From the NCBI RefSeq assembly GCF_017993425.1, contig NZ_JAGOMQ010000027.1, positions 1 to 59,594 of the forward strand: a stretch of DNA of 59,594 bases, given 5' to 3'. Positions 8,261 to 59,022 of this stretch are shown here, piece by piece. A program made the translations under genes and the position numbers. The stretch is from Amaricoccus sp. Its GTDB lineage: Bacteria > Pseudomonadota > Alphaproteobacteria > Rhodobacterales > Rhodobacteraceae. The notes beneath the pieces were generated by a model, which was given only the letters and a program-made list of their open reading frames with translations, was not told where the DNA came from and searched no databases. Each line of letters starts with the position of its first letter. The stretch's first letter is position 1.

Positions 8261-8298
8261 GTGAACGGCTGCGTGAACCGCGGGTGTTCACGCGTGAA
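8261..8298. promoter_or_regulatory. GTGAAC half-site cluster with a 12-bp palindrome, upstream of phoH
   Basis: GTGAAC occurs at 8261 and 8273 and its inverse GTTCAC at 8286. The second and third copies form an inverted repeat (GCGTGAAC/GTTCACGC, 8271-8278 and 8286-8293). Immediately overlapping is TTCACGCGTGAA (8287-8298), a perfect 12-bp palindrome. The arrangement looks like an operator for the phoH-ybeY-corC-lnt unit. No regulator is identified, and a transcript-end hairpin for miaB is an alternative reading. Confidence 0.4.
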
Positions 8299-8337
8299 AA
8301 TTGCCTAAGTCATTGGAATCGTGTAATCGGACCTTTG

Positions 8338-24098: not shown

Positions 24099-24398
24099 TC
24101 AGAAGCCCGTGAACAGGAAGTCGATCGCCTTCGTGATGCGATACGCATCACCGGCCAGCGTGGCGACGGGGGCGCCGGAAAAGAAGCTGCGGGGGATTGC
24201 GGCCATCTCGCCGACGCGGAGCGCGCAGGCGACGCCGTCGACGACGCAGATCGGCTCGAGATGGGAAAGAGGCGTCGGACCCTGGTCGGTTGGCGTCAGG
24301 GGCGCCGCCATGCGCGTGGGAAGCGCGGCGAGCGACGACGCCTGCATGTCGACGACGAGCCGGCCGTCGGCAAGACGGTAGACGTCGTACTGCGCCAC
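24099..24398 (-). CDS. ccdB: CcdB-family toxin
   Basis: 99 residues from GTG 24398; GAGG eight bases upstream overlaps the ccdA stop codon, so the pair is translationally coupled. The sequence follows CcdB from start (QYDVYRLADGRLVVDMQ) to end (AYRITKAIDFLFTGF). Plasmid CcdB poisons DNA gyrase through its last residues Trp99-Gly100-Ile101; here they read Thr-Gly-Phe, so gyrase poisoning may be altered. The longer upstream frame overlapping ccdA is not used. Confidence 0.88.
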   Translation of the reverse strand: MAQYDVYRLADGRLVVDMQASSLAALPTRMAAPLTPTDQGPTPLSHLEPICVVDGVACALRVGEMAAIPRSFFSGAPVATLAGDAYRITKAIDFLFTGF

Positions 24399-24406
24399 GC
24401 GAAGCC

Positions 24407-24646
24407 TCAGGGCTTCCAGATCTGGAGGTCGGCGAGGGGCAGTCCGTGACGCTCGATCCAGTCGGCGCGCTCGGCGATGGCTGCGGCGTTCTCCGTCTCC
24501 CATCGCCGCGCCGTCTCGGTCCGGACCGCCGCCGCCAGCGCCTGCTCCGAGATCAGGGAGACGTTGAGGTCATAGGCCCGGGCGCTGTCGAGGATCTCCT
24601 GGTCCACGGTGATATTGGTCCGGGACTTGCGCCGGGGATTTGGCAT
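24407..24646 (-). CDS. ccdA: CcdA-family antitoxin
   Basis: 79 residues from ATG 24646, with GGAGGAG about nine bases upstream. A basic N-terminal ribbon-helix-helix (RRKSRTNITVDQEILDSA) for DNA binding precedes a C-terminal toxin-binding region (WETENAAAIAERADWIERHG, then LPLADLQIW). Encoded just ahead of ccdB, the normal order. Likely binds its own promoter region, where GTGT/ACAC repeats lie around 24665-24695. Confidence 0.9.
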   Translation of the reverse strand: MPNPRRKSRTNITVDQEILDSARAYDLNVSLISEQALAAAVRTETARRWETENAAAIAERADWIERHGLPLADLQIWKP

Positions 24647-24705: not shown

Positions 24706-24808
24706 GTTCCGTTCCCGGCTTGCCATCGACCCGTCCGAGGAACGGGATGCCTCGTGCGAGAGCGGAGGCCTGCGCTTGCCGGCCTCCGTCGGCTCGTTCG
24801 GGCTTGAG

Positions 24809-24847
24809 TTGCCCTGCGAAGAAATCCACAGGATTCTGTGGATAAGC
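24809..24847 (+). repeat. 39-bp direct repeat, left copy, with DnaA-box-like sequence
   Basis: 35 of 39 bases match 25184-25222. It contains the inverted repeat ATCCACAG/CTGTGGAT and, at 24837-24845, TGTGGATAA, the inverse of the consensus DnaA box TTATCCACA. It lies 54 bp before the dispersed repeat. Confidence 0.65.
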
Positions 24848-24901
24848 ACCCTGCACAACACCTGTCTGCTCGGCTGGATCCACGGGGGCGCGCGCCGGCC
24901 G

Positions 24902-25150
24902 GCCGACCGAAGCGGGCTTGCCCGCGAGGCCCGGCGCGACAGGCGAAAGCATTGCTTTCGCCGCGCCGACGGCTGGAGCGCGGTTGCGCGCGGAAGCCGT
25001 GAGGGGCGCAGATTTCTGCGGAAGCGCGCAATCCGTCCGTGAGCGCCCCGGCGAGCGCGGAATCGCGCTCGCCCCCCGGAGGGGCGATCGCGGACGGATT
25101 TGCCGCGGGTCAAATCCGTCTGGCGTCACCGTCGCGACCTGCTTCCGGCC
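24902..25150 (+). repeat. Structured dispersed repeat, copy 1
   Basis: About 249 bp, recurring at 51568 (same strand) and 58828 (opposite strand). Hairpins in order: GCGGGC/GCCCGC; a composite stem GGCGCG plus GCGAAAGC/GCTTTCGC plus CGCGCC; ACGGCT/AGCCGT; GGCGAGCGCG/CGCGCTCGCC; and GACGGATTTG/CAAATCCGTC. Stems are kept between copies while loops differ. No protein-coding reading is convincing, although the same peptide fragments appear in each copy. The 24671-25284 gap holds only this repeat, the flanking 39-bp repeats and the ccd promoter. Confidence 0.85.
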
Positions 25151-25183
25151 GGGGCTTCCGTTCCACGGTCGCGTAAGGTGGAA

Positions 25184-25231
25184 TTGCCCTGCGAAAACAT
25201 CCACAGGATCCCGTGGATAAGCTGTGGATTA
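25184..25231 (+). repeat. 39-bp direct repeat, right copy, with two DnaA-box-like sites
   Basis: Matches 24809-24847. It contains CGTGGATAA (25212-25220, one mismatch to the DnaA-box inverse) and is followed at once by TGTGGATTA (25223-25231), then AT-rich DNA up to 25260. Confidence 0.6.
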
Positions 25232-25284
25232 TCTTTATTTCTGCTTCATATCAGCCACTTGACCTATGCCCCACTGTGAGACGC

Positions 25285-50168: not shown

Positions 50169-51401
50169 TTATAGCGCCCAAACAAACTCAACCTTGTCTC
50201 CGGCGGGCTGGGCGGGGGCGCGGGGGGCGCGGACGAGAAGGGCGTTCGCCGCGGCGAGCACCGAGAGGAGCGCGCTGTCCTGGCGGGGGAAGGGCGTGCA
50301 GGACCAGCCCTCGGGCCCGGGCTCGACGCGGGCGCGCATGTAGTGGGTGCGCGGGCCGTTCGCCTCGACCGGACCGGCGAGGCGGGCGGGCATCGGCTCG
50401 GGGAGCGCGCCGGAGAGGCCGAGCATGCGCTCGACCGCCGGCACGACGAAGAGCTGGCCGCAGACCAGCGCCGAGACCGGGTTGCCGGGCAGGCCGAGCA
50501 TGGCGCGGGCCCCGAGCCGGCCGGCCATCAGCGGCTTTCCGGGGCGCATCGCCACCTTGTAGAAGTCGAGCGCCAGCCCGTGCGCCACCGCGGTGTCGCG
50601 CACGATGTCGAACTCGCCGACCGAGGCGCCGCCGAGGGTGACGACGAGGTCGGCGTCCTCGGTCAGCGCCAGCACGGCGGCGAGGCTCTCGGGGGTGTCG
50701 CGGGCGATCGGCAGCAGGCGGGCCTCGGCGCCGGCGGCCTCGAGCATCGCCTTCAGGCCGTAGTTGTTGGAGGCGACGATCTGGTCGGGGCCCGGCGCCA
50801 CGCCGGGCGAGACGAGCTCGTCGCCGGTCGGGATCAGCGCCACCACGGGGCGGCGGGCGACCGGGACGGCGGCGGCGTTCATCGCGGCGAGGAGCGCCAC
50901 GTCGGCCGGGCGCAGGCGGCGCGGCGCGGAGAGGCTGGCGCCGGCGGCGAAGTCGGCGGCGGCGGGCCGGATGTGGCGGGCCTCGTCGCGGCCGGGGCGG
51001 ACGCGGATCGTGCTGTCGAGGTCGGGGTCGCGCTCGGCGTCCTCCTGGATCAGCACCGCGTCGGCGCCTTCGGGGATCGGCGCGCCGGTGAAGATGCGGG
51101 CGGCCTCGCCGGGGCCGACGCGGCCGTCGAAGCGGGCGCCGGCCTGGGCGGCGCCGATGACGCGGAGCGTGGCGCCGGGGCGGGCGTCGGCGTCGCGCAC
51201 GGCGTAGCCGTCCATCGCCGAGGCGGGGAAGGGCGGCTGGTCGCGGGTCGCGACCACCGGCTCGGCGAGGACGCGGCCGCCGGCCTCGGCGAGGGGGACG
51301 TTCTCGGTCCCGAGCGGGGCGACGAGGGCGAGGACGCGGGCGTGGGCCTCGGCGACGCTGAGCATGGGGGCGGGCGCGGGGGGCGTCACGGGCGGGGTCA
51401 C
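50169..51401 (-). CDS. moeA: Molybdopterin molybdenumtransferase MoeA
   Basis: 410 residues from GTG 51401 (GCGAGG just upstream); ATG 51365 (MLSVAEAHARVL) is an alternative start of 398 residues. Inserts molybdate into molybdopterin-AMP. Motifs: PPFPASAMDGYAVRDAD, RIFTGAPIPEGADAVLIQED, VALIPTGDELVSPG, VTLGGASVGEFDIV, MRPGKPLMAGRLG and GLPGNPVSALVCGQLFVVPA. Located between lexA and moaC, the usual Rhodobacterales order, but separated from moaC by 484 bp containing the dispersed repeat. Confidence 0.94.
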   Translation of the reverse strand: MTPPVTPPAPAPMLSVAEAHARVLALVAPLGTENVPLAEAGGRVLAEPVVATRDQPPFPASAMDGYAVRDADARPGATLRVIGAAQAGARFDGRVGPGEAARIFTGAPIPEGADAVLIQEDAERDPDLDSTIRVRPGRDEARHIRPAAADFAAGASLSAPRRLRPADVALLAAMNAAAVPVARRPVVALIPTGDELVSPGVAPGPDQIVASNNYGLKAMLEAAGAEARLLPIARDTPESLAAVLALTEDADLVVTLGGASVGEFDIVRDTAVAHGLALDFYKVAMRPGKPLMAGRLGARAMLGLPGNPVSALVCGQLFVVPAVERMLGLSGALPEPMPARLAGPVEANGPRTHYMRARVEPGPEGWSCTPFPRQDSALLSVLAAANALLVRAPRAPAQPAGDKVEFVWAL

Positions 51402-51567
51402 GGGGCCTCGCCGGGGCCGGACTGGCCGCGGTCCCCGGGGGCGGGTCGGGCGTTCTGGAGCTTGCCGCGGTCCGCCGGCCCCCTGTCGCGGTCGGCCGGG
51501 GCCGCGGGGCCAAGCGGATTCACACTTCTCCGCCAGCCGCCAGAGACGTGACGATATGATGCCGATA

Positions 51568-51830
51568 GCCGACCCACCGAAGCGGGCTCTGCCCGCGAGG
51601 CTGCGGCGCGACAAGCGAAAGCACGGCTTTCGCCGCGCCGACGGCTGGAGCGCGGCGGCGCGGAAGCCGTGGGGGGTCCAGATTTCCCCGTTGTGCGCCA
51701 TCCGTCCGGGAGCGCCCCGGCGAGCGCGGCGACGCGCTCGCCCCCCGAGGGGCGATCGCGGACGGATTTGCCACGGGTCAAATCCGTCTGGCTTCGGCGT
51801 CGCGGCCCCTTGCTCCCGAGCCGTGGCTTC
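51568..51830 (+). repeat. Structured dispersed repeat, copy 2
   Basis: Same order of five hairpins as copy 1: GCGGGC/GCCCGC with loop TCT; GCGAAAGC/GCTTTCGC with loop ACG inside GGCGCG/CGCGCC; ACGGCT/AGCCGT; GGCGAGCGCG/CGCGCTCGCC closed by GCGA; GACGGATTTG/CAAATCCGTC with loop CCACGGGT. It lies between the 5' end of moeA and the 3' end of moaC, antisense to both. The remaining gap (51402-51567, 51831-51885) shows nothing. Confidence 0.85.
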
Positions 51831-51885
51831 AGCGTGTGGGCCAGCGCGGCTCGGAGGCGGGCGGTCGGGAGGGGCGCGGGGGCGG

Positions 51886-52365
<480 letters not shown>

Positions 52366-58827: not shown

Positions 58828-59022
58828 CGGCCGGAAGTCCGGTCGCGACGGCGCCGCCGGACGGATCTGTCCGTCGCCAAATCCGTCTGTGGTCGCCCGC
58901 TCACGGAGAAATCTGAACCCCTGACGGCTTCCGCGCCAACGCGCTCCGGCCGTCGGCGCGGCGAAAGCAATGCTTTCGCTTGTCGCGCCGGGCCTCGCGG
59001 GCGGAGCCCGCTTCGGTCGCGC
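58828..59022 (-). repeat. Structured dispersed repeat, copy 3 (inverted, shorter)
   Basis: Read on the minus strand it repeats the first three hairpins of copies 1 and 2 (GCGGGC/GCCCGC loop TCC; GCGAAAGC/GCTTTCGC; ACGGC/GCCGT) and the last (GACGGATTTG/CAGATCCGTC, one pair changed to a U-G wobble), ending like copy 1 in CTTCCGGCCG. The fourth hairpin, GGCGAGCGCG..., is missing and replaced by a short GC stretch. It lies between takP and the APC permease gene, antisense to both. 59023-59219 has no other feature besides the permease ribosome site. Confidence 0.8.

Follow-up and report, generated by a model that had tools for sequence, protein, structure and literature searches.

A hairpin-rich repeat of an Amaricoccus species is a MITE family with a likely IS4-family parent and probable motif-linked insertion

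Why should the same ordered set of hairpins occur three times in 59,594 nucleotides of Amaricoccus DNA? A preliminary description of this stretch (referred to at its full length as the window) saw in it a dispersed intergenic repeat and offered three identities: a REP/ERIC-like non-autonomous element, a family of structured RNAs, or a nucleoid-protein site. The repeat can now be securely assigned to a family of miniature inverted-repeat elements (MITEs) of an Amaricoccus species. No earlier paper joining 'miniature inverted-repeat' with Amaricoccus was found in the literature searched.

The three-fold recurrence is real. All three copies align across a structured core, with long invariant stretches, and all are recovered by a covariance model of that core (Table 1); the model was built from 20 copies including copies 1 and 2, and only the score of copy 3 is independent. 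The stems lie where they had been placed, and copy 3 lacks the internal GGCGAGCGCG/CGCGCTCGCC hairpin and has no recognisable ends. The predicted fold of copy 1 is stronger than that of 200 of 200 shuffled sequences (z −5.5 as DNA, and −5.2 and −4.2 as RNA of the forward and reverse strands). For this copy the nhmmer match covers model positions 2–326 of 328, equivalent to 24848–25178, and the ends were then extended by position. Comparison of its flanks gave no 9-bp target duplication; an imperfect 41-bp direct repeat stands in its place. The window copies are thus poor examples of their family: copy 1 is without a duplication, copy 2 has degenerate ends and copy 3 has none. The 41-bp repeat contains a CCACAGGAT..GTGGATAAG dyad, and its left member holds the sole exact TTATCCACA of the whole window, a DnaA-box-like sequence. 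A CcdA/CcdB toxin-antitoxin pair (24099–24646, by Pfam) adjoins copy 1.

Table 1. Positions of the elements and motif sites in the window.
Feature	Position	Strand	Basis or remark
Copy 1, family-A MITE, 334 bp	24847..25180	+	nhmmer, model of 37 complete copies
Copy 1, left terminal inverted repeat CACCCTGCACAACA	24847..24860	+	2 mismatches in 14 to CACACTGCACGACA
Copy 1, right terminal inverted repeat, degenerate	25167..25180	-	5 mismatches in 14
Copy 1, structured core	24905..25139	+	covariance model R1, 246.1 bits
41-bp imperfect direct repeat, abuts left end of copy 1	24806..24846	+	36 of 41 equal to partner
Partner of the 41-bp direct repeat, abuts right end of copy 1	25181..25221	+	
33-bp target motif, weak variant	25249..25281	+	68 bp from right end of copy 1; motif score negative
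Copy 2, family-B MITE, degenerate ends	51511..51849	+	limits approximate, set by eye
Copy 2, structured core	51575..51807	+	core covariance model, 235.6 bits
Copy 3, core only	58841..59018	-	core covariance model, 138.0 bits; alignment with other copies
33-bp target motif, solitary, no adjoining element	8286..8318	-	

The expectation that three copies imply many in the genome was borne out. The hairpin pattern of the core has 125 exact matches in the 4.24-Mb draft genome (61 on the forward and 64 on the reverse strand) and 152 with up to three mismatches; the reversed control gave none in either case. A blastn search with copy 1 returned at least 48 rows from the best 40 of 359 candidates. Contigs C3, C4, C5, C17, C46, C51 and C101 begin or end inside or near an element, and C78 and C79 do so close by. 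The draft assembly is therefore broken at these repeats and probably undercounts the copies. A single recent assembly duplication can be ruled out, because the copies are spread over many contigs and differ from one another in flanks and target duplications. Among 37 genomes searched with mismatches allowed, the core pattern occurs in two, this one (152 matches) and one congener (8), and high copy number is confined to this one. The exact pattern has four places in that congener, and they coincide with the four matches in Amaricoccus macauensis DSM 101730. A plasmid or phage origin was considered and rejected, with zero matches in plasmids, phages and viral contigs (the last searched with the exact core pattern).

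That no terminal inverted repeats had been seen proved wrong for the family: the interval first described (24902–25150) ends inside the element. When 57 copies were aligned with their flanks, conservation extended past that interval and closed in an inverted repeat, CACACTGCACGACA ... TGTCGTGCAGTGTG. The terminal 14-mer has 85 exact matches in the genome and none in the control. Complete copies of this family (family A) are about 330 bp long (range 311–367 bp), too short for a transposase gene. A profile made from 37 complete copies gave 121 matches above 60 bits in 97 stretches; 87 are complete at both ends, and 86 of these have sufficient flank for examination. A 9-bp target duplication is exact in 32 of the 86 and has at most one mismatch in 49, where shuffled pairings give 0.1 and 0.2. 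Exact direct repeats of other lengths are rare (6 bp, one; 7 bp, none; 8 bp, two; 10 bp, three). By eye, copies in this genome often lie in or beside other palindromes, e.g., GTTATAATATAAC, CCGTCAACCTTC...GGTTGACGG and GGATTCCAGCC repeats.

Comparison with sites in relatives, as the preliminary description had proposed, gave an empty site at one locus, that of window copy 2. This copy lies between moeA (50169–51365) and moaC (51886–52365; both by Pfam). The moaC–moeA gap is 520 bp here, versus 5–42 bases or an overlap between the matches in eight of ten congeners. In the remaining two, partial matches lie 234 bases apart in one and none was obtained in the other.

Window copy 2 belongs to a second family, B, of about 345 bp, with the same core of about 235 bp and different ends, CTAGCGAATTCACACTTC and, inverted, CTACGGCATTCACACATC; CTASSGMATTCACAC is the family-B end sequence. 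The 9-bp duplication is exact in 6 of 13 copies with both ends recognisable and matches at 8 or 9 of 9 positions in 9 of them. These copies came from 22 rows, nine copies being seen on both strands, and the shuffled values are 0.03 and 0.4 over rows; ends were accepted with at most five changes each, and window copy 2 was left out as too degenerate. Three family-B copies are nested in another core (on C41, C52 and C59). A 441-bp element on C101 starts with an A left end and a core; a B right end follows, and beyond it the right-hand portion of an A element. In this one case a B copy appears to have inserted into an A copy, with recombination between the two cores. No parent was found for family B, and its ends differ from the end of the resident IS described below.

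For family A a parent of the IS4 family is likely. On C101, non-MITE sequence starting CACACTACACGACACAG, one base off the MITE repeat, enters an open reading frame that is cut by the contig end. The same IS end, CACACTACACGACA, begins C8, C19 and C23, with 99–100% identity to C101 over 126–127 bp, and a multi-copy IS at which the assembly breaks would be expected to turn up at several contig ends in this way. Plasmid proteins from 11 records match the initial 78 residues of the reading frame. The best of them, 65% identical, is an annotated IS4-family transposase of Cereibacter azotoformans, carried by an IS on pORIO4 (NZ_CP089970.1), and is the closest named relative found. This transposase scores 179.9 bits with NF033591 (IS4 family; cut-off 152) and 44.5 bits with PF01609; the resident 78-residue fragment alone reaches an E value of 0.066 with NF033591 and has no Pfam match. 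The Cereibacter IS starts CACACTACACGACA (CACACTACACGACACAGA), has the inverse of CATACTACACGACTCTTG at its other end, and lies between two copies of GCAAATACC, a 9-bp duplication. It thus resembles the MITE in an end one base off and in its duplication; unlike the MITE it is autonomous and 1183 bp long. The MITE core itself has no match in the plasmid collection that includes pORIO4.

The resident IS is known from one end only, and that end matches family A only. With the Cereibacter transposase as query, the sequence searched gave a match of just 71 residues, on C101. None of the eight PF01609 matches in the genome, whose loci were included in that search, is the transposase of the resident IS, and none of these or of the two PF00872 matches lies between paired terminal repeats. 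The PF01609 match at the C101 locus belongs to a different gene, about 1.2 kb from the IS end. A site there resembling the terminal repeat, with one mismatch, is the IS end and not that of a truncated MITE. Exact CACACTGCACGACA occurs in 3 of 198 genomes, this one and two with one match each, but such a search could not reveal the parent, because the parent's end differs by one base. A search of the sequence covered for paired terminal repeats with a duplication brought up two MITE tandems and the 441-bp hybrid and nothing else. On C23, 7 bp separate the IS end from a MITE. In an Octadecabacter arcticus plasmid (L312, 1719–1732), CATACTACACGACA, two changes from the MITE repeat, precedes a truncated relative of the IS4-family transposase.

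About half of family A shows a strong pattern of apparent site-directed insertion. Near the elements a 33-bp motif, AATCAATGGCTTAGCGAATTTTCACGCGTGAAC, is found again and again. The 86 complete copies have 49 strong matches to it no more than 200 bp from their ends, 44 of them at 31–36 bp; all 49 are directed away from the element, with 29 at the right end and 20 at the left. Counted by copy, a strong motif accompanies 46 of the 86 (44 at 31–36 bp) and is absent from 40, some of which show weak variants at the same distance. The profile rests on 63 sites from the same stretches, which were chosen around copies. Where the flank of an IS end is open, on C8 and C19, the motif lies at 34 and 33 bp; beside the IS end on C23 none was seen. 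Allowing one mismatch, the motif pattern matches at 98 places in this genome, and 60 relatives, ten of them congeners, gave no match. Two tandem pairs reuse the same 9 bp. On C4, GCCAGCAGG, GCCAGCAGG and GCCAGCAGA stand around two copies, at a site with only a weak motif variant; on C68, GGCCCACGT stands around two copies, the middle copy being inverted, and a strong motif lies 35 bp away. Tandem copies that share the same 9 bp would follow if elements inserted more than once at one spacing from the motif.

Only 4 of 80 motif sites lie inside genes, and in 59 of 76 cases the next gene downstream is oriented towards the motif. Of 20 further sites, three have an element copy and several others have different repeats. 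Repeats without the core (GACATGCGCATGTCAACCTGC..., GGGCGATTGGCC...) were observed upstream of the motif at eight loci (L219, L221, L224, L226, L227, L230, L231 and L233); some of them end in sequence that weakly resembles the A end, with the motif at the same distance, a likeness seen without a chance control. The motif's TTCACGCGTGAA was considered as parS and dropped, its two central bases being absent from the parS palindrome. The elements themselves are also largely extragenic, with 3 of 86 complete copies overlapping a larger called gene (genes were called with an in-house program rather than a standard one). Both neighbours were called for 83 complete A copies: the flanking genes are convergent around 39, co-directional around 39 and divergent around 5. 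For gaps of these stretches that have no element the corresponding counts are 19, 208 and 27, a biased background since the stretches were chosen around copies.

The core extends beyond this genome. The covariance-model search of relatives that had been proposed as a check was run at E ≤ 0.001 on 10 congeners and 50 other relatives, with at most the best 35 candidates per genome and stricter filters. It found the core in six congeners, with at least 24, 19, 12, 4, 4 and 1 matches (8 of the 12 are a single hairpin); the matches listed for the other four congeners include none. Among the matches listed for the 50 other relatives, two have one weak match each, in two other genera of the family (L145 in G022, 58.8 bits, and L146 in G020, 51.4 bits). 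On 63 loci from relatives the model gave 79 matches, 16 of them the second in their locus and nearly all of these on the opposite strand. Compensatory changes are seen at 59 of 71 pairs when the relatives are aligned to the model, with 497 cells changed on both sides versus 166 in shuffled alignments and 58–74 with the partner slid; the alignment leans towards the model, in whose building three of the members were also used. A third segment, downstream, forms a second pairing with the right arm of the long hairpin (52 both-changed cells versus 17 shuffled, maximum 28, over 54 rows, in the best of the registers scanned and with seven columns common to the first pairing).

The ends of these related copies are less clear. 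The flanks in one genome, G007, suggest by eye other ends again (CCGGGTGA...), and A. macauensis copies show no clear ends in theirs. Direct repeats of at least 8 bp flank 10 of 14 copies in G007 and 15 of 22 in A. macauensis, versus shuffled means of 7.6 and 10.8, with inconsistent ends; target duplications are not demonstrated in either by these sequences. That the core recurs and covaries in congeners, and is common to different ends, is well supported; that it has a function is inferred.

Several known systems share single features with the Amaricoccus MITE. Tn7 and the transposons that hunt res sites insert at a constant spacing from a site that they recognise; they carry target-selector genes and make 5-bp duplications. 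The set distance is alike, and the duplication is 9 bp here. REP and REPIN elements are short palindromes without target duplication, unlike the MITE. ERIC, an enterobacterial palindrome of about 127 bp, differs in length.

Further comparisons come from three papers. MITEAba12 of Acinetobacter is non-coding, with terminal inverted repeats and 9-bp duplications in 36 of 90 copies, and a resident IS, ISAba12, is believed to mobilise it in trans (PMC6382973). It is 113 bp long and AT-rich, with GGCTTTGTTGCA-type ends and no target sequence trend (PMC6382973); the Amaricoccus elements are 330–345 bp and GC-rich, with other ends and a motif at a fixed spacing. The Yersinia element YPAL/RU-2 is like them in not being AT-rich and in having internal inverted repeats; its targets span or adjoin dyad symmetry, and filled and empty sites have been compared. 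It differs in its 168-bp length, its duplications of 3–26 bp, and inverted repeats that are internal rather than terminal (PMC2229807). The same paper describes the CIR repeats of Caulobacter and Brucella, also alphaproteobacterial and intergenic with a conserved fold, as a two-armed RNA with a GANTC site (PMC2229807). QMITE2 of Coxiella has direct repeats of 7–9 bp, terminal inverted repeats around a core, and a strong predicted fold. Its core is 113–145 bp, and the available text mentions targeting of attTn7 but neither a core common to differently ended families nor a target motif for QMITE2 (PMC10969869).

Taken as a whole, the observations are very probably explained by MITE families with an IS4-type parent acting in trans, motif-linked insertion, and hairpins that are kept. 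The DDE transposase of the resident IS would move family A in trans and insert it with a 9-bp stagger. The transposase or a partner would read the 33-bp motif, allowing new copies to re-enter the same 9 bp and form tandem arrays. Ends may be exchanged through nested insertion and recombination between cores, which the 441-bp A/B hybrid fits. The hairpins may be kept because they help mobility, or because they make insertion behind genes harmless. A REP-, BIME- or ERIC-type element or nucleoid-protein site serving a chromosomal function is highly improbable: high copy number, a mostly extragenic position, hairpins and rarity between divergent genes would suit one, whereas the terminal inverted repeats, the 9-bp duplications, an IS with matching ends, the site empty in relatives, and high copy number in a single genome of 37 all speak for MITEs. 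Of the original proposal 'non-autonomous' therefore holds and 'REP/ERIC-like' does not.

It is harder to say what maintains the core. One proposal, less likely than not to hold, is that it is a structural module under selection, whose two hairpins are mutually exclusive, passed by nested insertion and recombination between unrelated ends and transposases across the genus and spread here by an IS4-family element aimed at the 33-bp motif behind genes. A serious alternative, though a doubtful one, is that the core has no function and that its stems seem constrained through template-switch correction between inverted repeats during replication. Few wobble pairs interrupt the mostly Watson-Crick stems, and arm-to-arm copying would likewise account for the resemblance among three arms, but template switching alone leaves unexplained why ordered hairpins persist in diverged congeners and with different ends. 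Structured RNA, with the core acting at transcript 3' ends as a stabiliser, attenuator or processing site and mobility secondary, is unlikely. Covariation in congeners, the arm with two partners and the scarcity of copies between divergent genes agree with it, as does an excess of G-T over A-C cells at pairs at least 70% Watson-Crick (79:48 in relatives, 78:30 at home); this excess is modest, and alignments fitted to a model that accepts G-U could themselves yield such a lean. Rfam gave no gathering-level match across the window and none at E ≤ 1 over 24800–25250. Relative to co-directional genes, complete A copies are 18 in the same and 21 in the opposite orientation, other copies 5 and 7, A. 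macauensis copies 7 and 6, and G007 copies 0 and 4 (by hand count), too few cases to weigh. With no orientation preference in the two genomes that have sufficient cases, a role at the mRNA level is not favoured.

Bacterial MITEs are usually viewed as remnants of insertion sequences with a filler interior. In these families the interior is common and kept, and it is the ends that differ. This raises the questions of whether folded interiors aid the movement or tolerance of MITEs, and how non-autonomous elements gain new ends. The pattern of sites also points to what may be an IS4-family element with site-directed insertion.
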